A DNA stretch of 16,845 nt from Clostridia bacterium (GTDB taxonomy: Bacteria > Bacillota_A > Clostridia > Christensenellales > CAG-138). Both the position numbers and the translations under genes were made by a program. Below, in pieces: positions 1-14,779 of this stretch. The stretch covers positions 1 through 16,845 of the forward strand of contig JAFZJT010000265.1 of the NCBI GenBank assembly GCA_017553815.1. The letters run 5' to 3'. The notes under the pieces were generated by a model that did no database searches, was not told the DNA's origin, and was given only the letters and a program-made list of their open reading frames with translations. Each line of letters starts with the position of its first letter. Within the stretch, counting starts at the first letter, position 1.

Positions 1-3000
1 GCATATTCTGATGCTGAAGAGATTCTGAACAAACTTACAGAATTTCTGAAAGAAAAAAAGTACGATAAAAAGATAGAATATGTTGTTAATACAGGAGACT
101 TTATTGATCAGCGCGCTATTGCAGCAAGTATCATTGGCAACTTGCGGGAAAAGTATCATGAGTTTGACAGTTTTGTTGCAACGTGGGAAAATGAGTTGTT
201 AAACAAAAGAAATGATGAGGAATATAAGAAAGAACACTATTTGAATTACACGAGAATATGTGTTAAACAAATAGAGGAAATGGGAGGGAAAATAAGAGAC
301 GATTATAATTCCGAATTAACAATAGCCTGCGAGGCCTTGTTCGAGAAAACGGGAAACCTCTTTTCTACGTTTATTAAAAATATCGGCGTGCAACCTGAAA
401 ACACCATTGTATCATGTGGAAACCATGATAGAACATGGCTTATTGGGGATGAAGATGTTAAATGCAGTGACTCCAAGTTAACGCTTAATTTTCAAGATCG
501 TTTTACTCTTTTCAGGAGCTTTTGCGACAAAAATGGATTTACTTATCTTGGAACAGATACTCCCATCCACGAAACAGCTGACGGTTGTTTAGCTTTTTGT
601 GGTTTTGATTCAGTTTCCCCCTCGCCTAACACTAATGAACGATATTGCTGTGGTTGTCATAACATCGACTATGAATCTATATTTAAACTATCTTGCGATA
701 CTCATATTATATTCGTTTCACATAAACCAATCGATGATTATTGCGATGAAGCTAAAACTGTATATGACAAAGCAAGGAAACATACATTCAGGCATTTTTT
801 GAGGACACATGGGACATGTGTATTAAACGGCGATAAGCATGGATTTGCAAATGAAGACAATGCTGTTCTTTGCGGTGCTCCGTTGAAGAAAGATAGTGAC
901 CAGATACGTTATACTATTATTGATACTAATTCTGTGCCATGGAACCACATCCCTATATTGTTCGATTGTGGTGAATGGAAGAAAGATAATTGGCCTGAAC
1001 TCATTGAAGATATGTACGCTGTTAGCAAAAAGAGCATTCTGGATAATCAGACGAAGAATTTGCATAATGATAGAATGCTGACCAGTGCTTATGACATAAT
1101 AAACCATTATGATAAGAGCATTACCGAACAATTGTCAACGGTTTTTAAGGCGGAATGCGAATATCGAATCAAAGGTGATAGAACACGAAAAGTGGATTTG
1201 TGGAGCGGTGATAATAGCATATTCGATTTCTTATACGAAAAAATCTCCAAATCTCAATTCTGCAATCCATTTAATATTCGTGGAGAGCCGGGGTCTGGAA
1301 AAAGCACACTACTCATTGAGCTTTACTCGTTTTTCTTGAATAAAGTTTATAATGGTAATACGCAAATATTACCATTGTACTTTAATTTCCGCAGTTACTT
1401 TACTGCTAATGAGCATGTCGGAACGGAAAAACTGATTAAAGTGGCTATGAATGCTTTTGATGCATTCACATCTGAAGCTGATGATTTGAAGGATCATCTG
1501 TTGGCAGAAAAAAAGGAATACAAATTACTATACCTAATAGATGGACTCGATGAGTTAAACTTCTATGGTAATGATGGCATTATCTTACATAAGCATATTC
1601 ACACTAAATGCAAGGCCATTGAGAAAGATGAAGATTTGTTTGTGCTTTCTATTAACCAGTACAAGAAGAGTTGCACAATAACGATGCTCAACTGGCGGTT
1701 GCAAACTGACAGTGATGTTATGTATTTGGATCCTGTTTGTTTAGTTCCAATTTCGGAAACAGAGAAAGACAAACGCGATGGTTTTTTTACTGCGGTAAAC
1801 ACAATTCTCAGAGACTATGGGATTAAAGAAGTCAATGCATTGTCACTAACAAAGTGTGGTCAAGTCACTGCAGATATTGGGTTAGTGTATTATTTGTTTT
1901 GCAATCAGAACCCTAACATGCGTATGAAACAAGGCGTTCCTAGGATTCCAGATAAATGGTATCAGGTTATTAGATACTATAAATGCGTATTATTACAAAC
2001 TAACTGGGATAAGCTGGATGATGCAGAGAAAGATTCGTTAATGAAATCTGCTTATGAATACTTGACTCTTGATAATTTTGATTACTCAACCCCATCATGC
2101 TCATCCTGCAAAACAAAAGATTTCAAACTGATTATTAGCAACAAAAGCATAAGGAATATGCTATGCGCAGAATACTTTGCCGAGTTGTTTGAAAGAATAA
2201 AGATAAATGAATGGAAGCCATTTATGACTCATGAATTGGGCTTGTTTATTTGTGCAGCACTATATGAAAGGTTCGCGCCGAGCGCTCCGAATCAGATCAA
2301 GCGTTTTCTTGATTTGTGTGAGCAAAATGAAAAAGTGACAGATTCAGCACAAATTCGCTCAATACTAATATATGTACTTGGCCAGTTGTTGTCAAAGGAT
2401 ATTGATGAGAATCATCGTAACCGATTAATTACAACACTATTGGGTAGTTCAAAAAAGCTTACGCCGTTTGATTATCATTGCTTGAAACGGTCATTCCGAA
2501 TTGCGCGCGTCTATATTGATTCAGAGATTCATCTTTCGCAACAAGGAAAAGAACTGAATAGTCTCCTATCCGACATAGTTTTTCAAAAGGAGATTGTCGA
2601 ATACGATCGAGCCTTTTTGCTGACATATTACGGGGATGCTGCGCAGAACTATAAAAGCAGCGAGATGCTTGTGGAATGCGAGTACTCAGAAGGTTTTGAT
2701 TTTGAGTTGGTTTTTCGCAATCTGAATTCGTTGCTTGATAATGAAAACAATCCTGTATACCTCTACAATGCATTTATGTTAGCCAGCTTTGTAAAAAGCA
2801 GACTGATGGTAAAGAGTTATCTTAATGGTCGACGTTTGACACATCCGTTTTTCTATAATGAGGAGTATGATAGTCAAGAAATCGAGCGTATAGTTGCTGT
2901 GTTGAGCATCGTCATTAATCGTATAGATATAGCCAATGAACGGATCAGGATTATTTCTGATATTAGGCTACGCGCTGCATACAAATCTTTAATGTTAGAG

Positions 3001-3774
3001 ATGAAACAGTTGTTTCTGGATTGCAAAGATGAGTTCAATAAATGTGATGTTTCTAGCAAATGCCAGGATAAGCTACATGAGGATATCGCTTTACGAGCGC
3101 ACCCCGAATATGCTTTTGATAAGTTGAGAAAGCTTGAATATTTCGGCAGGTCATGTTGGGATTACAACAAGCCGCCAAAGGACACTGATAAGAACGAAGA
3201 AGACAAGATCCTTGATAACAACATCAACCCCAAAGACGACAGTAATGGTCAACATAAAGAGACCGTACTTGAACATGTTTATGAAATGATGCTAATAGCG
3301 TTTCTCTATCTGCCAGAAAATGCCCCTGCAGATTATCCGGAGTACAACAAGAGAGATATTCTTAGCATTATTCTTACGCATGAGTTTGGAGTTGCTGAAT
3401 ATGGCGATATACCCAAAGGTGCGCGACGCTTTGTGGAACCAAATACAGAACCTGTAGACTATATCTTCTCGCTATGGTGTAATATGTGTATGAATACGAC
3501 TTCTTCTAGAAAAGACTTCGATTTAGCATATACATATAAAACTGATTCTAAAGATTCAGAGAATAGGAATATCAATATTAGAATTGCCAGAGAAATCGGT
3601 AGCATCCAAAGAGAGTATAAAGCTAGGCTGATTATTTCAACTGATCCAACATACAAAGATGCTCTAAAATGGATTCCTGAGCCGAACAAGGCTGATATGA
3701 CCGCATATGCTCAAAGTATATATGAATTGCTCATAGAGACAAACCCGAGAGTCTGCAAAGTGGAGAGAAGATGA
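1..3774 (+). CDS. Metallophosphoesterase-NACHT (STAND) fusion protein, 5'-truncated by the window edge
   Basis: The frame is open from base 1, so the true start lies upstream; the TTG at 142 is not a credible start because catalytic residues precede it. Counting codons from base 1, the N-terminal part has calcineurin-like phosphoesterase motifs: GDFID at 32-36, GNHD at 140-143, a VSHKP histidine near 240 and GDKHG at 277-281 (the usual form is GHxH). A NACHT-type P-loop follows: Walker A GEPGSGKST at 428-436 and Walker B with IDGLDEL around 513-519. About 700 further residues, probably helical, have no motif I recognise; a charged, likely disordered stretch lies near 1060-1095. In known STAND proteins such a C-terminal region senses the trigger and the N-terminal domain is the effector. 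I infer an anti-phage protein whose nuclease or phosphodiesterase activity is released by oligomerisation. The gene is AT-rich compared with the mod/res genes. Domain calls are firm; the defence role is inferred. Confidence 0.88.
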   Translation, partial: AYSDAEEILNKLTEFLKEKKYDKKIEYVVNTGDFIDQRAIAASIIGNLREKYHEFDSFVATWENELLNKRNDEEYKKEHYLNYTRICVKQIEEMGGKIRDDYNSELTIACEALFEKTGNLFSTFIKNIGVQPENTIVSCGNHDRTWLIGDEDVKCSDSKLTLNFQDRFTLFRSFCDKNGFTYLGTDTPIHETADGCLAFCGFDSVSPSPNTNERYCCGCHNIDYESIFKLSCDTHIIFVSHKPIDDYCDEAKTVYDKARKHTFRHFLRTHGTCVLNGDKHGFANEDNAVLCGAPLKKDSDQIRYTIIDTNSVPWNHIPILFDCGEWKKDNWPELIEDMYAVSKKSILDNQTKNLHNDRMLTSAYDIINHYDKSITEQLSTVFKAECEYRIKGDRTRKVDLWSGDNSIFDFLYEKISKSQFCNPFNIRGEPGSGKSTLLIELYSFFLNKVYNGNTQILPLYFNFRSYFTANEHVGTEKLIKVAMNAFDAFTSEADDLKDHLLAEKKEYKLLYLIDGLDELNFYGNDGIILHKHIHTKCKAIEKDEDLFVLSINQYKKSCTITMLNWRLQTDSDVMYLDPVCLVPISETEKDKRDGFFTAVNTILRDYGIKEVNALSLTKCGQVTADIGLVYYLFCNQNPNMRMKQGVPRIPDKWYQVIRYYKCVLLQTNWDKLDDAEKDSLMKSAYEYLTLDNFDYSTPSCSSCKTKDFKLIISNKSIRNMLCAEYFAELFERIKINEWKPFMTHELGLFICAALYERFAPSAPNQIKRFLDLCEQNEKVTDSAQIRSILIYVLGQLLSKDIDENHRNRLITTLLGSSKKLTPFDYHCLKRSFRIARVYIDSEIHLSQQGKELNSLLSDIVFQKEIVEYDRAFLLTYYGDAAQNYKSSEMLVECEYSEGFDFELVFRNLNSLLDNENNPVYLYNAFMLASFVKSRLMVKSYLNGRRLTHPFFYNEEYDSQEIERIVAVLSIVINRIDIANERIRIISDIRLRAAYKSLMLEMKQLFLDCKDEFNKCDVSSKCQDKLHEDIALRAHPEYAFDKLRKLEYFGRSCWDYNKPPKDTDKNEEDKILDNNINPKDDSNGQHKETVLEHVYEMMLIAFLYLPENAPADYPEYNKRDILSIILTHEFGVAEYGDIPKGARRFVEPNTEPVDYIFSLWCNMCMNTTSSRKDFDLAYTYKTDSKDSENRNINIRIAREIGSIQREYKARLIISTDPTYKDALKWIPEPNKADMTAYAQSIYELLIETNPRVCKVERR

Positions 3775-4406: not shown

Positions 4407-5384
4407 TTATTCGTTGTCCGTCGATAGAAAATCATCATACAGCGGCTGCGTAATGAACGAAAACATATGCGCCTGTTCCATTATCGCTACATTTTTCTCT
4501 ATAATAAAAGGTATATCATCAAGCAAGGTTATTCTTCCGTCAAGCATTTCGTAAATCGCCGCGGCGATATCGGAATACCCTTCGATGCTTTTATCAATGT
4601 GCTTATCTGCAAGAAACAGAAGACCGTCACATGAGTAATTCAGTATTGCCACGGAAGGCGAAACCGGAAAAAAGATGCCTGTTAACGCGTTCGCAATTCC
4701 ATTAGCATATAAACCTTTTTGTTGATTGAAGAATCCTTCAACAAGAACCGGGTGATCGCTGGTTACAAACGGCATATTGCTGCGTTGAGTGTTTCTTGCA
4801 ACGATCCAAATGCGGCTTTTAAGTATAGCGCAGTATTTTTCAAAGAGTTCAGGATCAAAGCAACTATTCAAATGAAGCTGCATTAATTCTTTGTCAGTCA
4901 ATTCCGCCCTTCTTGATGCTTTTTCAAATTTGCTCCTCGCTGCAAGTGGCAAAGCTGATCGCGTAATTGCCTTGATACTCTTAGAAACAGCAGGATATAG
5001 CGTTTTTGTATGGTTTATGCTGCTTGGCACTCTTAACAGCTGCGACATTATTATTCTTGCAAGAACGTCTTTTTCCTGATCATTGAGGATTCTTGTGTCG
5101 GGTTTCGCCATAGTTGCTGCAGCAACTATTCTGCCAAGAGGCGCGCCACAAAGAGAATCCTGTGTTCCGGCAAAATAGTGCTCCCAATACTTCGTATCAT
5201 CCTTGTCGTCTACATCGTAGAAATCCTTAATATAACCGACATTATCCGTTGCTTGTTTATAGAACTTTAGTTCCCCATCCTTATTCAGTCGCGTACCAAT
5301 GATGTACTCGCTGCGTCCGGGCTCTGCAAAACGATCCAAATAGCATTTGGGCACTATATGGTTTTTAGAATAATCTTTTCCCAT
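4407..5384 (-). CDS. DUF4238 domain-containing protein
   Basis: This 325-residue protein has both hallmarks of the DUF4238 family: an N-terminal HIVPKCYLDRFA motif (residues 9-20, family form H-hVP-xYL-xxFA) and a central TSDHPV motif (208-213). Its length is normal for the family. No membrane segment or signal peptide is seen. The biochemical function is unknown, although such genes are often found near defence and mobile loci. The ATG at 5384 is preferred because the family motif begins eight residues later. It lies 10 nt after the res stop, so this is the last gene of the leftward operon. The nearest purine-rich tract (AAGGGG, inside the end of res) is about 16 nt away, so initiation may depend on translation of res. 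The amber codon in res could then lower its expression by polarity. No convincing terminator follows. Confidence 0.82.
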   Translation of the reverse strand: MGKDYSKNHIVPKCYLDRFAEPGRSEYIIGTRLNKDGELKFYKQATDNVGYIKDFYDVDDKDDTKYWEHYFAGTQDSLCGAPLGRIVAAATMAKPDTRILNDQEKDVLARIIMSQLLRVPSSINHTKTLYPAVSKSIKAITRSALPLAARSKFEKASRRAELTDKELMQLHLNSCFDPELFEKYCAILKSRIWIVARNTQRSNMPFVTSDHPVLVEGFFNQQKGLYANGIANALTGIFFPVSPSVAILNYSCDGLLFLADKHIDKSIEGYSDIAAAIYEMLDGRITLLDDIPFIIEKNVAIMEQAHMFSFITQPLYDDFLSTDNE

Positions 5385-5394
5385 AGGTGCGTAT

Positions 5395-8025
5395 TCACAT
5401 CCCCTTCACGATCTCCATAAACCTATCAAACGAATACGCGCCCTCATACTCCGGCGACTTCGTTTGGAACACCATAAAATACCTAAACTTCGGCCCTGCC
5501 ATATTATCCCACAGCTTTCCGAGCTTCGCTTTTGCCTTCGATTCGTCGTTATCGAGGTGATCGCCCTTGGTTTCGATTAGCAAAATCTTTCCGCTGTCGG
5601 TCAATGCGATTATATCGGGATAGGCGTGGATATAGCCGTTTATCTCAAAGCCAAGGCGGGAGATATTCCTGTGCCACCATCTGATATTCGGCATTGAGGA
5701 AAGCTCCATAACGACCTTCTTTTCGTATTCGTTCACATCCTCCTCGCTGGTGTAGAGCGAGCGCGGGAACATCGAGGTGGTCTGCGTTGGCGAGATCGTG
5801 GGCTTCAGCGCATAACTCGGCTCGCAAACGATCCGCTCCTGCTCGCACCACAGGCTGAACACCTTGGCTCTGTATTCCGAAAGCAGCGCTTTGATCTTTT
5901 CCTCGATCTTCACAACATACGGGTAGACCGACTGCTCCATATCTGCAATCTGATCCTCGTTAAGCGTAGCGACAACACGATCCACATAATCAACTATCTC
6001 GCTATGCTTGATGCCGTTGAATCGTGAAAGCTTATTGACTATCTGCGCTTTGCAGTTTCTCAGCCTTGCCTCCGAAGGCGCAGCATTGAACCATTCCTTG
6101 AAAAAGGCGTTGTCCGAGCCGCCGATACGCCAAACCTTCGGCACTTTGCCCTTGCCGTCATCGGTATCTATCTTAAACATTTCGGCATCGATCGCGGATA
6201 AATCAATAGTCGCATCCCTGCCGTTGAGCGAAAAGTCTTCCTCGAGGTGGGCAAGCTTCAGCGGAATGTGTTCCCCCGCAAAGAAGCTGACCTCGGTTTT
6301 TATCATAAACTGCGGCAGCCGCAGCGCGGAAGCTTCTTCCTTGAACTCCTCGTTCATCATAAACACATTCATCTTATCCCGAACTTCCACCGGCGCAAGA
6401 TCGAGCGCGGTTTCGACCGCTCCGCTCATAACTTCTTCATAAGCGGTATTCTGCGAAAGCGCCATCGCCAGCATAGCATCCGCTTCGATAACGGAAGTTG
6501 GCGTGTTCCCGTCCATATTCATCGCGTTTTCAACGATTGATCTTAGGCTTGCGGCGTTGACTTCGGGAATATCGGCTTCCCCGTCAACAGCGGGCGCAGC
6601 GGGCTGAACGGGCGTTTGTACGGGCGGCTGTATTGGCTCTTTTACAAGCTCCGGTTCCGCATCCTTTGCACGGTAATCATTATCGGTGAAGCCCGCGTTG
6701 TTAAGTCCGCTCACAACTCTTTCAAGCGTTCCTGAGAAGTCCGAAGACGAAGTGATGACATACGAAATATTGAGCACATTGCTCCTGTTCTTCTGCGTAT
6801 AGGGCAGGCGAAGAACCCTTCCGAGTATCTGCTCCACATCCACGGACGATGTGCGGTTCGCAACGGTCGCAAGGATATAGGCAAACGGGCAGTCCCAGCC
6901 CTCCTTTAACGCGTTGACCGTAATAATGTAGCGTATCGGACAATCGGAGGAAAGCAGATCGATATTCTTGAGCTCGTCCTTATCACCCGTCTTTATCGTT
7001 ATCTCGTTTGCGGGTATGCCCGCATCGATAAGCGTTTGCTTTATCTTTTCGTATGTGGTGCTCTCTGCGCCAACCCTCGGCTGCGCCTGGAAAAGCACTA
7101 TCGGGCGAATGTATCTGCCCGTTTCCTTCTGCTCGTTCTGCGCCTGCACCTCCAGCTTGCATCTTAAATGGATCGCATCGGCGTAAACGTCCTCCTGCGT
7201 TTTGCGGTTGTAAACGATGACCGGCAGCTTGACCATATTCTCCGCCTTGAGCTGCCTTGCATCCACAAAGGATATGATATTGCTGTTTTTCTTCGGTGTT
7301 GCGGTAAGGTCGAGCACAAAGCAGGGATTGAAGCTTTTTATCATATCCACGCTGAGATTGCTGACCGCGTGATGGCTTTCATCCACTATCACCACGGGAT
7401 TGAGCGAGCGAATGACCTGTATAAGAGCGGTTTCATCGGTATCGGGCAGCAGAATCGACCTATCCTGCATAAGCTTTGGAAACTCTGCAAGATTGCCGTT
7501 CTCCTGATATGCCTTCCTGCCGTCCTTCTTGCTCGTGCGGAACGAATCATAGCTGAGCACGAAAACAGAAAGCTGCTCCGTTACTGCGGTTGGATTGAAG
7601 TTTTGCCCGCTTAAAAGCTGCGCCTTTGAATAAACCTCCACAGCGCCGCCGAAATCAACGTCTATCTTCTGCCGGTACGGATGCGCGGCATTGCTGAGCG
7701 CGGCATAGGTCTGCGTAAGTATCGCATCGGACGGAACGAGCTAAACCACCGCTTTTGTGGCAAAGCTCGGCACGGCATCATAGATGACCTTTATGGCATT
7801 TGCCGCGATAAAGGTTTTGCCGCCGCCCGTAGGCACCTTGAAGCAAACGCTCGGCACTCCTTCCAAAGCATCGTTATACACGGGCATTCCCCCAAGCCCG
7901 ACGTTGACATTCTTTTCATCCCAAAGCGCGGAATACGCCTCGGAAGCCCTGCCTTTCTCGGTCATAAGCTCAAGAAAACGGGCAAGGTCGGATAGAACGG
8001 TTTTTTGGTAGTTTTTAAGATGCAT
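5395..8025 (-). pseudogene. res: Type III restriction enzyme Res subunit, interrupted by an in-frame amber codon
   Basis: One frame of 876 codons runs from the ATG at 8025 to the TGA at 5395, broken only by TAG at 7741-7743 (codon 95). Before the stop are residues 1-94 with Walker A VPTGGGKT. After it come LVPSDAILTQT, the DESHH helicase box (from residue 215), DLTATP, and the motif V/VI region NALKEGWDCPF...EQILGRVLRLPY. A proline-rich linker follows, and then a C-terminal PD-(D/E)xK nuclease (YPDIIAL...LLIETKG). In the family the helicase segment reads VxWLVPSDAIL, so TAG has replaced a tryptophan TGG by a single G-to-A change. Res normally translocates or loops DNA using ATP and cleaves with Mod at unmodified sites. 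A restart downstream, for example at the GTG at 7641, would lack Walker A. The start has an AGGAG ribosome binding site overlapping the ATPase gene stop. All else is intact, suggesting a recent mutation, a sequencing error or suppression. Confidence 0.9.
7741..7743 (-). other. In-frame amber stop in res (TGG to TAG at a conserved Trp)
   Basis: The minus-strand codons around this point read K-A-V-V-TAG-L-V-P-S-D. Both sides are in the same frame (the start at 8025 and the stop at 5395 agree), so this is a substitution and not a frameshift. The neighbouring ATPase gene ends with TAG at 8037-8039, so amber is a genuine stop in this organism. Confidence 0.9.
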
Positions 8026-8033
8026 TTTATTTT

Positions 8034-8038
8034 CTCCT
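8034..8038 (-). promoter_or_regulatory. Ribosome binding site of res overlapping the upstream stop codon
   Basis: AGGAG on the minus strand shares bases with the TAG stop of the ATPase gene (TAGGAG) and lies 8 nt before the res ATG at 8025. The arrangement suggests translational coupling between the ATPase gene and res. Confidence 0.7.
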
Positions 8039-9659
8039 AAGTTCGAGGGATTCCTATCGGCATATATGGCAATAGTGCAGCAATGATTTCATCATGCAGT
8101 ATCCCGTGTAGCAGTCTAATGATCATCTGTTGATACTCTTCATTATTCACACCAAAGAATTGCCCAACTGATCTGGCAATGTTCTTTTTGTTGAACAGTT
8201 TTAGTATTTCTGCATAATCTGCACCAGCAAGCGCATCTCTGAATCGCTTTCCCTCATTAGCCTTTATGCTGTCAAAGCTTATGCTATTCAAAACGGCATC
8301 GAGTGTTGCCTTTGCTTCACACTCATTTTTCTTTGAAATATTCGCGCTGGATAACTCATACTTGATTTGTGCAACAACACTCTCGCAAATTTGTCCTTCA
8401 ATTTGTTTTGAAAATCGTTCGGTTATCACATACTGCTTAATTCTATCGAAAATATCGTTAGCATTACGTCCCAAATGCTCTGCAAATAGTTTTATCAACT
8501 CCTCAACAATAAAGAGGTTCTCCACTTCCGCAACGCTTATTGTATAAACCCCATCGGCTCTGTATTGTTCTATCTCATAATCAGAGCGGAAGTCCCGATC
8601 AATGATGCCAAAAACTTCGTTGTCATGCAGAAATTGGTTGCCGCGGAAAGCTTTGGTTCTTGCGATAACCTGCGTACAGCTTCCACACGGAACTACATAG
8701 TACTCGGGATAGATTTCCGAATACAATTGGGCATCAAAGCTGTTTCTTTCGCCCTCAACGAAAAGAACCTTTTTTCGGCTTCCGAGGATATCAAGAAGCA
8801 TCTCCTCGGGCAACTCTCCGCTTTCTATTTTTTCGTATTTCCACCGTTTTCCGTCGAACTCTCTAACCCAAATCTTATCCGCGTTAGAATGGGCAGCGGC
8901 AAACTGCACATCGTGCGTGATATAAATAAACAGGCAATCCTGCCTTTCCTCTTCCAAGGATTTCCATAACCTGTTCATTATTGATCTGTGCAAATGTACT
9001 TCGGGTTCATCAATGATAAGTACCGTGTCCTTTGGCGCACAAAGAACTTGCGCGGTTAGGTATAATACGGACCGTTCTCCATCGCTCATATTAGTTGCTG
9101 AATACTTCCCTTCGCCATCATTTCTATCAAGTACGGCAATGAATTTTGCATCATCAAGAACTAATCGGCGTTGAGGTAGAATTCGTCGCCATATTCGAAT
9201 AAGCTTTTCAGAAACTGTAATCGGCACTTTAGGAATAGTGATGTTTTGCGCCTCTGCTTCTCGAGCCTTCTCAATAAACTCATGCTCCTCGTTGCTATTC
9301 ATAGCTAAAAGCGCGGCAAATGTATTGTCGATATCATCAATTAATCTTGTTGTGTAGTCGGCGTTACTCCAGCCCCATCGATGATCTTTGATGCCGTTAG
9401 ATACACTAAATTCGTCGTCGGCACCAAATTGGACATAGTTCCAAGCTTGCGAGAGTGGTTTTAAAGGTATATTCTCCGAAAAACTTAGTTTCCTCTGCGC
9501 GCCAACACGATGTACGCGCTTCATCTCTTGCTGCTCAATCCATGCGCCAAGTTTACTCTTTCCCGATCCATTTGCACCAACAATAATCACCGCGTTCGAT
9601 TCGGTGGTGCAGTCAACTCTATTACCGTTTTCATCGGGAAGCCAATAAGTGAATGACAT
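8037..9659 (-). CDS. ABC-type AAA ATPase with C-terminal TOPRIM/DUF4435-like domain
   Basis: This 540-residue protein has Walker A GANGSGKSK at 28-36, an ABC-like signature SDGERS at 192-197, Walker B VLIIDEPE at 213-220 and a switch His in THD at 248-250. The C-terminal half begins KKVLFVEGERN (about 296-306) and continues to GIIDRDF at 351-357 and VAEVENLF near 376-383. This acidic pattern (VEGxxx...DRD) fits the DUF4435/TOPRIM-like nuclease fold fused to ATPases in OLD-family and related defence proteins. It probably uses ATP hydrolysis to control a metal-dependent nucleic-acid cleavage domain; that role is inferred. Its place between mod and res is unusual, since the two are normally adjacent. 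It starts 21 nt after the mod stop with an AGGAG site 7 nt before the ATG, and ends in TAG 11 nt before res. It is more AT-rich than res. Confidence 0.85.
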   Translation of the reverse strand: MSFTYWLPDENGNRVDCTTESNAVIIVGANGSGKSKLGAWIEQQEMKRVHRVGAQRKLSFSENIPLKPLSQAWNYVQFGADDEFSVSNGIKDHRWGWSNADYTTRLIDDIDNTFAALLAMNSNEEHEFIEKAREAEAQNITIPKVPITVSEKLIRIWRRILPQRRLVLDDAKFIAVLDRNDGEGKYSATNMSDGERSVLYLTAQVLCAPKDTVLIIDEPEVHLHRSIMNRLWKSLEEERQDCLFIYITHDVQFAAAHSNADKIWVREFDGKRWKYEKIESGELPEEMLLDILGSRKKVLFVEGERNSFDAQLYSEIYPEYYVVPCGSCTQVIARTKAFRGNQFLHDNEVFGIIDRDFRSDYEIEQYRADGVYTISVAEVENLFIVEELIKLFAEHLGRNANDIFDRIKQYVITERFSKQIEGQICESVVAQIKYELSSANISKKNECEAKATLDAVLNSISFDSIKANEGKRFRDALAGADYAEILKLFNKKNIARSVGQFFGVNNEEYQQMIIRLLHGILHDEIIAALLPYMPIGIPRT

Positions 9660-9680
9660 AGTATTGCTCCTCTCTTTTTC

Positions 9681-11423
9681 TCAAAGCCTCTTTATATCCC
9701 TCGGTATCTTTTTGAAGGTAATATTGTACTTTTTCAATTCCTCATCGGGAATGGTGCAAAGATCGGCATAGATCAGATACCCATCGGCCTTTTCCTTTAT
9801 GGTTGAAAGGAAGCCGTGGTTAAGCGTGGTGGGCTGATCCTTTTCATAATAGAAATAGTAATCCGTGCTGTTATGGCTGCCGAGGAAATAGGGGTTCGCG
9901 CTTTGGGCGGGCGCAAGCGGCGACCTTGTTTCCATAAACCAAACATAATCGCGGATCTTTGCGATATCAACTTCCTCATTCAGATTGCCGTTCGGCAGAA
10001 GCAGCGCTTGTCCAAGATTATAGAAAGTGAAATCGCCGCCCGTTCCCTCCGCCGCGTTCTTGCCTCCACCGTAACCGTTTATAACGCGCTTTACGCGCTC
10101 GGCGGTTATGCTCTCGGCATAGTCCTCCATCTCAACAAGAATAAATTTGCGATTACCGCCATCGGCCTTATTCATATTCAGAACAGCATGAGCGGTTGTG
10201 CCGGAACCGGCGAAGGAGTCGAGAATGATATCGTCATCCCCACTTAACCGCCTTAAAACTTCACAGATTAAAGCCGTAGGCTTTGCATATGTGAACACTG
10301 TTTTTATTCCAAAAACACCTTCAATTTCATCAGTTCCTTTTGCGGTATAAAAGTCCTTGCTATCCCAAATTGTAGGAATGGTTATTCCTGCGGTTGAATA
10401 GTCCAATATTTCAAGAGTCGGACAGTCGTCCGATTGTGGTTTGCAAGAAAAAGATCCGTCTTCAATCTTTTTCTTTATGCCGTCAGACAAGAATTGGATA
10501 GACCACTTATTCTTTGTTGCTTTGCTCTTCTGCGGAATGACTTTAATGTATCCGCGGTTCCAGTCCCTCATTGTGCTTTCTGCAATTTGGCGCCATACAC
10601 AGGGCAAGCCCTTGCTTGTTACTGGCCATACTGCAGTTGTTCCGGCAGGAGCATTGTCATAGTCAAAAGAATAAGAAGCCTTATCCCCGCAATACTCTCC
10701 GCGATCGATTAATTCTTGTAACGAACAACCGCAGGAAACAATTCTTCCGAGGTCATCAACATAAATCGGATATGTCTGGTTCGGCCTTTCTTCTTGGAAA
10801 AAAGAGGCCAATGTCATGCTGTGATAAGGAGAACTCTCGTTGTTTATACTTAACGCCGAAGCATTGGCTCTAAAATCTTTAGGAAGGATAAAAACAATGT
10901 ACTCATGTGTAACATTGAAGGACCCCGACGGTTTTCCTCCCGACGTTTTTACTGTGACCGTCATTATCTGCCGCGATGAAAACATCTCTTGACACAACGA
11001 AATGAGATTATTTACTTCATGAAAACCAATACTAATAGCGATACACCCGTTAGGATCGCAAAGCCTTTGAAGCAGCCTCAGCCTCGGATACATCATGCAA
11101 AGCCATTTATCATGGCGGCTGAGATCCTCGCCCTCCTTGCCAACCACCTGCCCAAGCCATTTCTTGATCTTCGGATCGTTTACATTATCGTTGTAAACCC
11201 AGTTCTCGTTGCCCGTGTTGTACGGCGGATCGATATAGATGCACTTGATCCTGCCCTCGTATTTCGGCAGAAGTGCCTTGAGCGCCTCAAGATTATCACC
11301 GCGGATTATCATATTTTCGCTCTTCTCCGCGCCAAATGTGTACCTCTCCTCAAGCACCCTGTACGGCACCTGCTGATGATGGTTTATTACCTTGTCTTTT
11401 CCTATCCATTCAAGAGTGGGCAT
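9681..11423 (-). CDS. mod: Type III restriction-modification DNA methyltransferase (Mod), N6-adenine, beta class
   Basis: I place the start at the ATG at 11423 (580 residues), because AAGGAGG lies 8 nt upstream; an in-frame TTG at 11447 has no such support. Motif IV DPPYNTG is at residues 65-71 and the AdoMet-binding motif I DSFAGSGTT is near 402-410. The order IV, target-recognition region, I is that of beta-class N6-adenine methyltransferases such as type III Mod. Mod provides sequence recognition for both methylation and restriction. After motif IV the strand usually reading ISIDDNE reads ISIGFHE here. Base composition changes sharply inside the gene: the flanks are about 50-58% GC, while roughly 10260-11040 (residues about 128-388, the target-recognition region) is about 32-45%. 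That indicates domain replacement. The gene lies 24 nt after the TIR gene and 21 nt before the ATPase gene. Its usual partner Res is interrupted, so Mod may now act alone. Confidence 0.93.
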   Translation of the reverse strand: MPTLEWIGKDKVINHHQQVPYRVLEERYTFGAEKSENMIIRGDNLEALKALLPKYEGRIKCIYIDPPYNTGNENWVYNDNVNDPKIKKWLGQVVGKEGEDLSRHDKWLCMMYPRLRLLQRLCDPNGCIAISIGFHEVNNLISLCQEMFSSRQIMTVTVKTSGGKPSGSFNVTHEYIVFILPKDFRANASALSINNESSPYHSMTLASFFQEERPNQTYPIYVDDLGRIVSCGCSLQELIDRGEYCGDKASYSFDYDNAPAGTTAVWPVTSKGLPCVWRQIAESTMRDWNRGYIKVIPQKSKATKNKWSIQFLSDGIKKKIEDGSFSCKPQSDDCPTLEILDYSTAGITIPTIWDSKDFYTAKGTDEIEGVFGIKTVFTYAKPTALICEVLRRLSGDDDIILDSFAGSGTTAHAVLNMNKADGGNRKFILVEMEDYAESITAERVKRVINGYGGGKNAAEGTGGDFTFYNLGQALLLPNGNLNEEVDIAKIRDYVWFMETRSPLAPAQSANPYFLGSHNSTDYYFYYEKDQPTTLNHGFLSTIKEKADGYLIYADLCTIPDEELKKYNITFKKIPRDIKRL

Positions 11424-11431
11424 GTATTGAT

Positions 11432-11438
11432 CCTCCTT
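11432..11438 (-). promoter_or_regulatory. Shine-Dalgarno site that decides the mod start
   Basis: AAGGAGG on the minus strand is followed by 8 nt and ATG (11421-11423). It is a near-perfect anti-16S match and rules in favour of this ATG over the in-frame TTG at 11447, which lies upstream of the site. Confidence 0.75.
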
Positions 11439-11447
11439 GCCAATCAA

Positions 11448-12671
11448 TCAAAACGGAAAATCATCTGAGTATTTAGTTTTCGCTTGCGCTATAAGGTCTT
11501 GTAACACAATAGGAACGCCTAACAGCCATTCTTTAAGTGATGGGAATATTGTGTATTCTTTGGGGTTATGGTAGCTCGTCCAAGCACTTTCATATACAAG
11601 AGCATTATCAGTTAATAAACCCAAGCATCTATGATAATTATTTGATACAATGCTTGTAATACTATGTTTGCGTTCCCAATTTTCAATATCAGCAATCTGT
11701 CCACCAGCATTTCCTCTATCACCGAGTTTTGATACCCTTTCATCAATAAGATATGATGCAAACAATATGTCGGCATCATCAAGTTTTCCAGCTTCAAGTA
11801 GCTCGGAATACTTTTTCGAAGCAAGGCAAATATGCTGTTTTACTGTTTGCTCCCAGTCTTTTTGTGTGTTGGCATTGATGACAGCATTTCTAAAATAATC
11901 AATATCAAGCTCAATGGCTGCAATAGTTTGTCCAGTAACGCCACGATCAGCAATAGTTGCAATCTTTGATGCTGACAACAAATCGAATGCATTATCAACA
12001 TTAACGCCGTGAACCTCATTTTCATTGAGCCAATTCATAACTTCCAATTTTGTCGCTTTTCGCGTGTGTCTTGAAAACATGTAGAACAAAACAACTCTTT
12101 CATCTTCTGTTAGGCTCTCGTACTTAATGATGTTGTCAGAAGCACTATTGAGCATATCTTGACCTACTGCTAAATCCTTTACAGCAGTTCTTGTTGCAAT
12201 ATATTCATTGTACCTAGATATAAGTTTTTGAATAGCGCTATTTATGATTGCCGTTGTATTATGAGGCGCATTTATTGCAGTGTTCACTATATCGTATACA
12301 GCGGACACATCATCCATATTATCAAGCCTGCGTATTTTGTATTCGCTGTTCAAAAAGCCATACATATTTGATGGTTCGATCTCCGGCAAGGCAATAATAA
12401 TGGTATCTTTCTTCTGAAACCAAACAATCCCTGCCTCATTTAAGCAATATGCGCTCTCGTAGTAGTTGCGAGAAAGAATAGCGATGTTAACAGTGCTATT
12501 TTGAAGCTTCTCTTGAACCTCGCGCGAAATGCATTGAACAATGTCATTACCCGGAAGCGATGAACAAAAGATGAGATCGTTAGAGATTCCAACACCAACC
12601 AAGAAATCCTTGAGCATATCCGCGATTTCTTTATCCGTTGATCTGTGGCTTATAAAAATACCAGAATTCAT
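11448..12671 (-). CDS. TIR-domain protein, first gene of the type III restriction operon
   Basis: The N-terminal 120 or so residues are a TIR domain: GIFISHRSTDKE (4-15), the core strand VNIAILSRNYYES (61-73) and CLNEAGIVW with Glu79 at the place of the catalytic glutamate of NAD-cleaving TIR domains (S-x-x-C-x-x-E). The rest (about 120-407) is mostly helical. It has a winged-helix-like stretch around 190-245 and a conserved-looking tail that I do not recognise; it may sense a trigger or bind a partner. Bacterial TIR proteins commonly deplete NAD+ or make signalling nucleotides in abortive infection. The start at 12671 has a GAGGGTGG tract just upstream. The gene is AT-rich and ends 24 nt before the mod ATG, so it is co-transcribed. 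I infer a back-up suicide effector tied to the restriction system. The TIR call is firm; NADase activity and partner are inferred. Confidence 0.88.
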   Translation of the reverse strand: MNSGIFISHRSTDKEIADMLKDFLVGVGISNDLIFCSSLPGNDIVQCISREVQEKLQNSTVNIAILSRNYYESAYCLNEAGIVWFQKKDTIIIALPEIEPSNMYGFLNSEYKIRRLDNMDDVSAVYDIVNTAINAPHNTTAIINSAIQKLISRYNEYIATRTAVKDLAVGQDMLNSASDNIIKYESLTEDERVVLFYMFSRHTRKATKLEVMNWLNENEVHGVNVDNAFDLLSASKIATIADRGVTGQTIAAIELDIDYFRNAVINANTQKDWEQTVKQHICLASKKYSELLEAGKLDDADILFASYLIDERVSKLGDRGNAGGQIADIENWERKHSITSIVSNNYHRCLGLLTDNALVYESAWTSYHNPKEYTIFPSLKEWLLGVPIVLQDLIAQAKTKYSDDFPF

Positions 12672-12743: not shown

Positions 12744-12772
12744 ATGATACCAAAAAAGAGTGTTTTAATCAA
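12744..12772 (-). promoter_or_regulatory. Candidate sigma-A promoter of the TIR-mod-ATPase-res-DUF4238 operon
   Basis: On the minus strand, TTGATT (12767-12772) and TATCAT (12744-12749) are separated by 17 nt. This predicts a start of transcription near 12737 and a leader of about 65 nt before the TIR gene ATG. The short gaps between all five genes make a single transcript likely. Confidence 0.5.
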
Positions 12773-12819: not shown

Positions 12820-13011
12820 TCATTTCGTCTCACGTTCCTGCTCGCCGCAGAGATAATACCGATTCTTACACTTTGTGCTGCAAAACACGGCATTCGATCT
12901 TGGCGCGGCAAACACCTTATCACAGCCTTTACATATTCGCAGGGGCTTTGCATCGTCGGTTATCAGCAGGTAGAGCGTCATTTCGATTGAATGGTGATAG
13001 TCTTTAGGGTG
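12820..13011 (-). pseudogene. C-terminal zinc-finger remnant of a lost gene (DUF6076-like)
   Basis: The minus-strand frame reads HPKDYHHSIEMTLYLLITD, then ICKGCDKVFAAPRSNAVFCS and TKCKNRYYLCGEQERETK, ending in TGA at 12820. The C-x2-C ... C-x3-C pattern followed by KNRYY is a treble-clef-like zinc finger. It resembles the tails of Clostridial proteins annotated as DUF6076 or CGNR-like; the family name is from memory and only tentative. The frame is blocked upstream by TGA at 13012-13014, and no start or N-terminal part is found, so it is a 3' gene fragment. The promoter-operator region of the AlbA_2 gene begins just to its right, which suggests that insertion of that unit removed the 5' part. 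Confidence 0.6.
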
Positions 13012-13129: not shown

Positions 13130-14779
13130 ATGCGAATAATACCCGAAAATGAAAGCCTTACAATCGAGTTCAAAAGCGACGTCAAAAAGCTATCCAACAG
13201 CGATATTTTTGATGCCGTAGTTGCTTTTGCGAATACGGACGGCGGCGATTTATATCTTGGTGTTGAAGACGACGGCACTATAACCGGCGTTCATCCCGAC
13301 CACATCAATCCGATGACATTGAGCGCGTTTATCGCGAATAATACCATTCCGCCAGTTTCTATCCGCGCGGAGATCGTTGATGATGTAAAGCCCGTTTTGA
13401 AGATATCCGTACCCAAGTCCTATGGAGGTATAGTTGCAACGCAATCGGGCAAAACGCTTCGCAGGCGCTTGAAGATGGATGGCACTCCTGAAAATGTTCC
13501 GATGTATCCGAACGAAATGGCGACGCGTTTATCCGATCTTCGTCTTTTGGACTATTCCGCGCTTCCGATACAGAGCGCAACCACGGATGATTTCGATCCG
13601 ATCGAAGTTGAAAGATTGAGGAAAACGATCCTCGCATACAACGGGGATCGTTCTCTGCTTGAGCTGTCCGATGAAGAACTGTTTAAGGCGTTGGGGCTCG
13701 TTACAGAGCAACTCGGCAAAGCCTTCCCCACGATTGCCGGAATACTTATGCTTGGCAGGGAATCGGCATTAAAGCAGTATGTGCCTACAAGCAGTGCGGC
13801 ATTTCAAGAACTGTCGGGCACGAATGTTGTAAAGAACGAAGATTTTGCGCTGCCGCTCCTGCTGATGATCGAAAAGCTGAACGGCTATCTCGAAGCTCGC
13901 AATCCCGAGTATGAGCTCGAATACGGCTTGTTCCGTATTCCCGCACCGGATTTCAATAAAAGGGCGCTGCGCGAAGCTATCGTAAATGCCTTTAGCCATC
14001 GCGACTACTCCAAAATGGGGCGCGTGAGAGTTGCACTTTGCGATGGCGGGTTGACTATCGCCAATCCCGGCGGCTTTATCGAGGGCGTTTCCGTCAACAA
14101 TCTTCTTACAGCCGAGCCGCACGGAAGAAACCCGCTCCTTGCGGATGTGCTGAAGCGTATCGGTCTTGCCGAACGCACCGGTCGAGGCGTTGACAGAATA
14201 TTTGAAGGTTCTTTGATCTATGGCAGTCCGCTTCCGGACTATTCCGATTCCACGACTGTAACGGTATCGCTGTTCATCCCGCGCAATGAGCCCGATCTGC
14301 AAATTGCGAAGATGATTTCGGACGAACAGAATCGCCTCGGTCGTCCGCTGCCGCTCAATACGCTGCTGGTGTTGAATAAGCTGAAGGATATTCCCCGTTC
14401 CGACATTCATCAAATTGCAGAAGCGGTCAACCTCTCCGAAGCGGCCGTTAAAGTGGTTCTCGATAGATCCATTGAATCCGGCTTGGTCGAAGCGTTCGGC
14501 GCGGGCAGAGGACGAACTTACATGCTGTCCCATAAGCTGTATAGCAACAAGGGGCGGGCAAGCGGATACGTCAGACAGGCGGATATCGACGAAGCACGCT
14601 ATCCCGAGCTTATAATCCGTTTAGCTAAGAATAATGAGTTTATCTCAAATGCCGATGTTGTTCAGCTTCTCCATGTTTCTACCGCACAAGCATATCGCTT
14701 GCTTAAACGCCTTGTTGATGAAGGCAAGCTGGAAGCTGTAAATAAAGGCCGTTATTCAAAATACCGTATCGGGAAATGA
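13130..14779 (+). CDS. AlbA_2/Schlafen-like and HATPase domain protein with winged-helix C-terminus
   Basis: I place the start at the ATG at 13130 (549 residues): GGAGGTG lies about 10 nt upstream and the AlbA_2 domain begins at once (IPENESLTIEFKSD). A start at 13064 would fall upstream of the promoter and operator. The AlbA_2 (divergent AAA-4, Schlafen-like) nucleic-acid-binding domain spans about 1-120, with FANTDGGDLYLGV as its hallmark. A GHKL/HATPase_c_4 module follows, with REAIVNAFSHRDY and ANPGGFIEG around 303-340 and GRNPLLADVLKRIGLAERTGRG near 350-375. The C-terminus has two winged-helix stretches (about 425-470 and 510-549). Proteins of this architecture are annotated as ATP-binding proteins or putative transcriptional regulators. 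The dyads on both sides suggest it binds its own control region. It stands alone, divergent from the TIR operon. It is richer in GC than the TIR gene. Its cellular role is unknown; it could be a regulator or a defence component. Confidence 0.87.
   Translation: MRIIPENESLTIEFKSDVKKLSNSDIFDAVVAFANTDGGDLYLGVEDDGTITGVHPDHINPMTLSAFIANNTIPPVSIRAEIVDDVKPVLKISVPKSYGGIVATQSGKTLRRRLKMDGTPENVPMYPNEMATRLSDLRLLDYSALPIQSATTDDFDPIEVERLRKTILAYNGDRSLLELSDEELFKALGLVTEQLGKAFPTIAGILMLGRESALKQYVPTSSAAFQELSGTNVVKNEDFALPLLLMIEKLNGYLEARNPEYELEYGLFRIPAPDFNKRALREAIVNAFSHRDYSKMGRVRVALCDGGLTIANPGGFIEGVSVNNLLTAEPHGRNPLLADVLKRIGLAERTGRGVDRIFEGSLIYGSPLPDYSDSTTVTVSLFIPRNEPDLQIAKMISDEQNRLGRPLPLNTLLVLNKLKDIPRSDIHQIAEAVNLSEAAVKVVLDRSIESGLVEAFGAGRGRTYMLSHKLYSNKGRASGYVRQADIDEARYPELIIRLAKNNEFISNADVVQLLHVSTAQAYRLLKRLVDEGKLEAVNKGRYSKYRIGK

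Follow-up and report, generated by a model that had tools for sequence, protein, structure and literature searches.

The 16,845-nucleotide contig JAFZJT010000265.1 from a Clostridia bacterium (the window) carries a type III restriction locus in which a gene for a PARIS-family protein, ariAB, lies between the methyltransferase gene mod and the restriction gene res. We think the nested gene probably provides a second line of defence that answers phage inhibitors of restriction. The open reading frame list of the window places five genes on the minus strand in the order TIR, mod, ariAB, res, and DUF4238. Their gaps, from TIR to DUF4238, are 24, 21, 11, and 10 nucleotides, and the original prediction of five co-oriented genes spaced by 10-24 nucleotides is thus confirmed by the coordinates. 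The features of the locus are:

11448..12671, minus strand: TIR gene (Pfam TIR_2, 9.6e-9)
9681..11423, minus strand: mod, type III N6-adenine methyltransferase (N6_N4_Mtase, 6.7e-30; PADLOC MTase_III PDLC03644, E 2.9e-160)
8037..9659, minus strand: ariAB, single-chain PARIS-family protein (AAA_21, 1e-15; DUF4435, 1.7e-16; PADLOC AriAB)
5395..8025, minus strand: res, whole span (Pfam ResIII in both pieces)
7744..8025, minus strand: N-terminal piece of res, 94 residues (Walker A GGGKT at 67)
7741..7743, minus strand: in-frame TAG within res, the frame being open on either side
5395..7641, minus strand: downstream open frame of res, 748 residues from a GTG (PADLOC REase_III PDLC03653, E 2.4e-55)
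4407..5384, minus strand: DUF4238 gene (PF14022, 9.3e-25)
12744..12772, minus strand: promoter-like site 5' of TIR, TTGATT-17-TATCAT with TG before the second hexamer (a consensus match only)

The third gene had been described as an OLD-like ATPase with a DUF4435/TOPRIM tail. Both domains are present in one chain, AAA_21 at 59.1 bits and DUF4435 at 61.1 bits, against cut-offs of 27 each that were taken from the PARIS paper and applied there to the two-gene form. More exactly, the protein is a fused PARIS-family AriAB. The PADLOC AriAB model PDLC02982 matches residues 2-534 of its 540 (E 4.3e-160), the ABC-type ATPase half spanning about 1-280 and the DUF4435/TOPRIM half about 281-540. It has the ATPase motifs GANGSGKS (Walker A), SDGER, IDEPE, and THD, the TOPRIM motifs VEGE and DRD, and the TOPRIM residues E302, D354, and D356; the motifs of both halves are largely invariant across 37 sequences. 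The best structural alignment of the TOPRIM half is with the solved PARIS AriB, and the ATPase half is as close in structure to PtuA as to AriA. In a sequence search of solved structures with AriAB, AriA and AriB stayed below significance at 0.001. It seems to us very improbable that AriAB is an OLD/Gabija-type DNA nuclease acting on phage DNA next to Res and not an anti-restriction alarm.

We surveyed a genome collection for AriAB with a profile scan, which returned 51 loci, versus no match when genome contigs were looked up with one protein sequence. The scan used two exact peptide patterns and hence is biased toward window-type AriAB. The 45 loci with a full-length AriAB were counted, and six with fragments or broken copies (L051-L056) were excluded from the count and the tree; L018, which lies on the same contig as G114, was counted once. 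Neighbouring mod and res were sought with the window's own proteins at 1e-5, so that other type III families could escape. The order mod-AriAB-res was found in eight of the 45 loci (L006, L007, L009, L011, L014, L016, L017, and L018), with gaps of 11-27 nucleotides between mod and AriAB and 11-32 between AriAB and res; the res of L009 runs off its contig. The original prediction had linked the ATPase to type III genes and put that link forward for refutation, and these eight loci bear it out.

AriAB is absent from other loci of the same kind. The same mod-res family is encoded in G452 without AriAB and with a gap of 9 nucleotides. Related mod genes were found in 34 plasmid records; in all eight of the loci opened, res follows mod and nothing in the stretch matches AriAB (one gap is 221 nucleotides, the others 12 or less, and mod is annotated in pieces in two). 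L055 (10001-12802) retains mod and res, and of its AriAB only residues 1-72 are left, joined in frame to res in a 933-residue open frame, apparently a natural loss of the nested gene. As AriAB stands between mod and res in some loci and is missing from others, it is optional and has a single, exact position. Among 391 genomes of the class, six encode AriAB and two a window-type res, and the sole genome with both (G114) has them adjacent. L010 (743-2836) encodes a full-length AriAB beside two scraps of mod, with no match to res, and the alarm there seems to outlive the restriction system. The 101 relatives of G001, the nearest genome to the window, gave only five weak, short ATPase matches to AriAB. 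Two phage records, both of one Oenococcus phage, encode AriAB. The five-gene stretch, searched as DNA against plasmids, had no match.

The AriAB tree comprises 46 proteins. Its ten rows with a type III label (the eight loci, the window, and L010) fall within one 24-row clade (support 99/99). The label requires five changes on this tree, at least three of them forced by well-supported branches; shuffled labels require 9.3 on average, and none of 500 shuffles needed as few as five. The type III association is inherited, with several gains or losses. Agreement of pairwise distances across nine loci is moderate for AriAB and res (Mantel r 0.44, p 0.011), with r 0.34 (p 0.043) for AriAB and mod and r 0.23 (p 0.11) for mod and res, the last two including the variable target region of mod. 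These nine-locus tests do not show strict co-inheritance of mod, AriAB, and res as one unit.

Chance packing does not account for the placement of AriAB between mod and res. The broader form of that explanation, an ATPase unrelated to restriction that was swept into a defence island, we consider improbable: it would fit the island's other defence-like genes and the AriAB loci without a typed restriction neighbour, but it fits poorly with the exact position of AriAB between mod and res in eight of 45 loci, at gaps of 11-32 nucleotides, and with the clustering of the type III label on the tree. Several results do weigh against the reading of AriAB as a nested second line and against a wider link between AriAB and restriction. 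The typed neighbours of AriAB in L012, L015, L027, L028, and others include no restriction genes, none of 11 viral-contig AriAB loci matches the window mod or res, nor does any of the five plasmid records opened out of 53 with AriAB. Many of the AriAB loci come from metagenome bins.

Seven more AriAB loci adjoin type I, II, or IIG restriction genes, which with L010 brings the restriction-linked loci to 16 of 45, a lower bound as only part of the neighbours were typed. In L034 (2-3597), from a Helicobacteraceae bin, a DNA methyltransferase gene and a TdeIII-type restriction gene flank AriAB at gaps of 2-3 nucleotides, to all appearance the same nesting in a predicted type II system. AriAB stands beside the same methyltransferase/TdeIII-type pair in L037, after a cytosine methyltransferase and HpaII in L026, with a partial HpaII (by clustering) in L025, and before XamI in L043. 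In Campylobacter volucris (L048, 6244-11545) it is one nucleotide 3' of an Eco57I-type IIG gene, and in L047 it follows hsdR-, hsdM-, and hsdS-like genes. It is possible, and we put it forward only tentatively, that in Clostridia single-chain PARIS has become an optional integral gene of type III operons and, more broadly, a mobile guard inserted into type I, II, and III operons. It would then answer yet-to-be-found phage proteins that inhibit type III enzymes, perhaps by monitoring Mod/Res itself. A separate observation concerns a viral contig (L059, 11683-14769), where the gene just 3' of a distant AriAB encodes leucine-rich repeats, Roc-COR, and a C-terminal TIR domain.

The original prediction of type III mod and res genes holds for their domains and PADLOC matches, but it had missed an interruption of res. 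The mod gene starts at the ATG at 11423, with AAGGAGGA upstream, and its product has the type III motifs DPPY at 65 and FAGSG at 404; it is apparently intact. In contrast, res is not one reading frame. A 94-codon piece with the Walker A motif is followed by the TAG and then by an open frame; the earliest start listed for this frame is the GTG at 7641, and it encodes DESH at 87 and a PD-(D/E)xK-like PDIIALTDSGKILLIETK at 675. The helicase and nuclease motifs are thus not together in one intact Res. None of ten res copies compared is interrupted at this position. A protein database entry (P0241) is an 876-residue full-length Res with 98% identity to the downstream part, so uninterrupted copies exist. 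We read the TAG as a stop because ariAB at the same locus ends in TAG, where its relatives also end. Recoding of TAG was considered and rejected on this ground and because res alone among the five genes is interrupted. The TAG may be a strain mutation or a sequencing error. Given the in-frame stop, the strain probably lacks active restriction. By descent the locus is type III, and we claim no working type III system for the strain. It also departs from the type III layout in that res does not directly follow mod, ariAB lying between them here and in the eight other loci.

PARIS is reported to halt growth on sensing the phage protein Ocr and to act as a second line once a phage has inactivated restriction (Rousset et al. 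2022, PMC9122126), and according to a review AriB degrades tRNA-Lys (PMC12707154). The suicide module that had been predicted in this restriction locus fits PARIS, a sensor of an anti-restriction protein. Ocr blocks type I restriction and BREX and reportedly leaves type III enzymes unaffected; therefore the nested AriAB should answer another inhibitor. From the gene order, the domain identities, the recurrence of mod-AriAB-res in Clostridia, the mod and AriAB motifs, and the stop in res, we infer the following course. Mod would mark host DNA, and Res, where intact, would cut unmarked phage DNA. A phage inhibitor of restriction would be sensed by the ATPase half of AriAB, which would release the TOPRIM half as a nuclease; its target is probably tRNA, the substrate of E. 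coli PARIS. The infected cell would then cease translation and sacrifice itself. Through nesting, the back-up would be carried and expressed together with the system whose inhibition triggers it. With res interrupted, the window strain is probably left with a methyltransferase and an alarm but no restriction. TIR and DUF4238 are co-oriented neighbours with putative roles of their own.

A different trigger can be imagined, in which intact Mod/Res binds and restrains AriAB and any inhibitor that disrupts the complex makes AriAB fire. The tight, recurring placement of AriAB between subunit genes with short gaps would suit such restraint, as would the family's presence beside type I, II, and IIG genes. 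E. coli PARIS, however, is triggered by Ocr and works in DH10B, a host free of EcoKI, and AriAB survives both in L010, with its mod scraps and no res found, and in the window with its broken res. Without an intact partner, a suicide protein held in check should kill the cell or disappear, so this survival weakens the model, and we regard it as unlikely.

A five-gene layered system had also been predicted, and the results do not support it. Neither TIR nor DUF4238 was found in any of the eight mod-AriAB-res loci, whether by tblastn at 1e-5 or, at 0.1, with a profile of TIR and the protein sequence of DUF4238; the sequence of L009 stops at res, and those of L006, L011, and L018 extend 1.0-2.0 kb 5' of mod. 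As controls, both queries match in the window, and the profile of TIR does so in G001 too. The 5' neighbours in these loci are of other kinds, namely T5orf172 (L011), FRG (L016), and DUF3800 (L018), with no family assignment in L006, L007, L009, and L014 and that of L017 outside the typing; among the 3' neighbours are SIR2 and HerA (L018) and a type II pair (L017). Their absence from the eight loci makes TIR and DUF4238 look like cargo on either side of a core that recurs, and they may have roles of their own. We give little credence to a system in which both are integral, which the absences and the differing 5' neighbours oppose, even though the two genes lie on the same strand at gaps of 24 and 10 nucleotides and TIR and the start of mod are still together in G001.

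That genome shares 25% of the window's words and is 68% complete. Its TIR gene is 98.8% identical and is followed by about the first 100 mod codons (99%), the match ending at window position 11125; AriAB, a window-type res, and DUF4238 were not found in this 68% complete genome. TIR relatives are encoded in four genomes: two of 391 (G001 and G150), three of 219 (G001, G850, and a broken copy in G823), and only G001 among 348 of the phylum, samples that overlap and are not to be summed. In G150 the TIR relative is 27 nucleotides after a cytosine methyltransferase and before a helicase-like gene; another methyltransferase and a GmrSD-type gene are close by, and the locus has no match to type III genes. 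This neighbourhood possibly speaks for some link between TIR and restriction and to that extent favours the five-gene system. The loci of G850 and G823 show no mod or res match by the window proteins, their other genes having been viewed by eye only. TIR had no match in plasmids at 1e-20 and three loci in viral contigs, with matches confined to the TIR domain. DUF4238 was not found in plasmids, nor in 138 genomes by a search that the tool rated uninformative.

The TIR domain occupies residues 4-123 and is of the SpbK type. The glutamate E79 of its SxxCxxE motif (SAYCLNE), which we take to be the NADase residue, is invariant in 20 sequences, suggesting that the protein is probably an NADase-type effector. 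While the domain is close to that of SpbK of Bacillus subtilis, it is N-terminal in the window protein and at 150-271 of 308 in the SpbK model, and the rest of the protein differs. Searched as a whole chain, the protein has structural matches taken up by the TIR half, with no known fold for the C-terminal region among the matches listed. Thoeris was considered for this gene and rejected, as TIR is flanked by mod and an AlbA-type gene with no ThsA beside it; ThsA is also not among the PADLOC matches listed for eight window proteins.

Other features of the window lie around the operon. Promoter-like sites number 23 across the region versus 17.4 +/- 4.4 in shuffles. Just 5' of TIR, a 53-residue cysteine-rich open reading frame (12820-12981, minus strand) has no Pfam match and is perhaps the end of a decayed gene. 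Divergent from TIR, 13130-14779 (plus strand) encodes a SLFN_AlbA_2, HATPase_c_4, and HTH protein that is 97% identical in G001. In L006, mod is preceded by the C-terminal end of a relative (46%), and in L019 a further AlbA_2 gene stands directly 5' of AriAB; an AlbA_2-type protein possibly regulates such loci. At the other end, 1-3774 (plus strand) encodes an open-ended 1257-residue protein with metallophosphoesterase-like motifs by eye and a NACHT NTPase match (4.3e-5) under the Pfam cut-off. It has no PADLOC match and is perhaps a STAND-type defence gene absent from the lists. The segment 3888-4287 is probably a remnant of an insertion sequence at the border of the island. It is 81-84% identical to places in genus relatives, and in two of them the match reaches the end of a gene for a transposase (by reading, IS256-like).

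The position of a PARIS-family gene, fixed within the mod/res pair, predicts that phages encode inhibitors of type III restriction. It also suggests a route to them, as such inhibitors are predicted to be toxic in cells with window-type AriAB. Two further questions become testable: whether the suicide modules nested in restriction operons correspond to the systems that host them, and whether an alarm can outlive its restriction enzyme, as hinted by the broken res of the window and the missing res of L010.

The nesting idea is already known, from PARIS in BREX and DarTG2 in a type I locus, and a fused PARIS between mod and res is new to the literature searched. No report of that arrangement was found in this literature, which excluded most subscription papers, preprints, and supplements, and earlier notice of it is possible. 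A 2024 preprint by Payne et al. is said to treat defences embedded in immune systems, and an earlier survey by Aravind and colleagues reportedly covers TOPRIM-linked OLD-ABC neighbourhoods. The original prediction had known of no named system with this gene order; PARIS already has a name and has been published as nested in BREX, but the literature searched showed none between mod and res. PrrC in EcoprrI resembles the nested AriAB in being a tRNA-cutting suicide module in a restriction locus triggered by an anti-restriction peptide, though its locus is type Ic and its nuclease unrelated to AriAB. DarTG2 has been reported nested in a type I restriction locus, and the published suicide-type module in a restriction operon, as far as it is described, differs from ours in its toxin, its type I locus, and its own repressor.

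In Salmonella, PARIS is embedded in BREX between pglX and pglZ, and 2.21% of about 2000 BREX loci have a known system between pglZ and pglX; according to these reports, no trigger had been found for the embedded PARIS (PMC11341690, PMC9009780). Both there and in the window an anti-restriction alarm is nested in a methylation-based defence operon, but the Salmonella system is a two-gene PARIS in BREX, whereas ours is a fusion between mod and res. Like the PARIS fusion form named in PMC9122126, the window protein joins the ATPase and DUF4435/TOPRIM in one chain, and it has the catalytic motifs of PARIS (AriA and AriB). It differs in a sequence far from the tested E. coli proteins and in its place within a type III operon instead of the P4 hotspot described there. 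Compared with a type III restriction-modification system of the EcoP15I type, the locus has the same N6-adenine Mod with DPPY/FxGxG and the same DEAD-box Res with a PD-(D/E)xK-like end, but it carries an extra gene between mod and res, and its res is interrupted.
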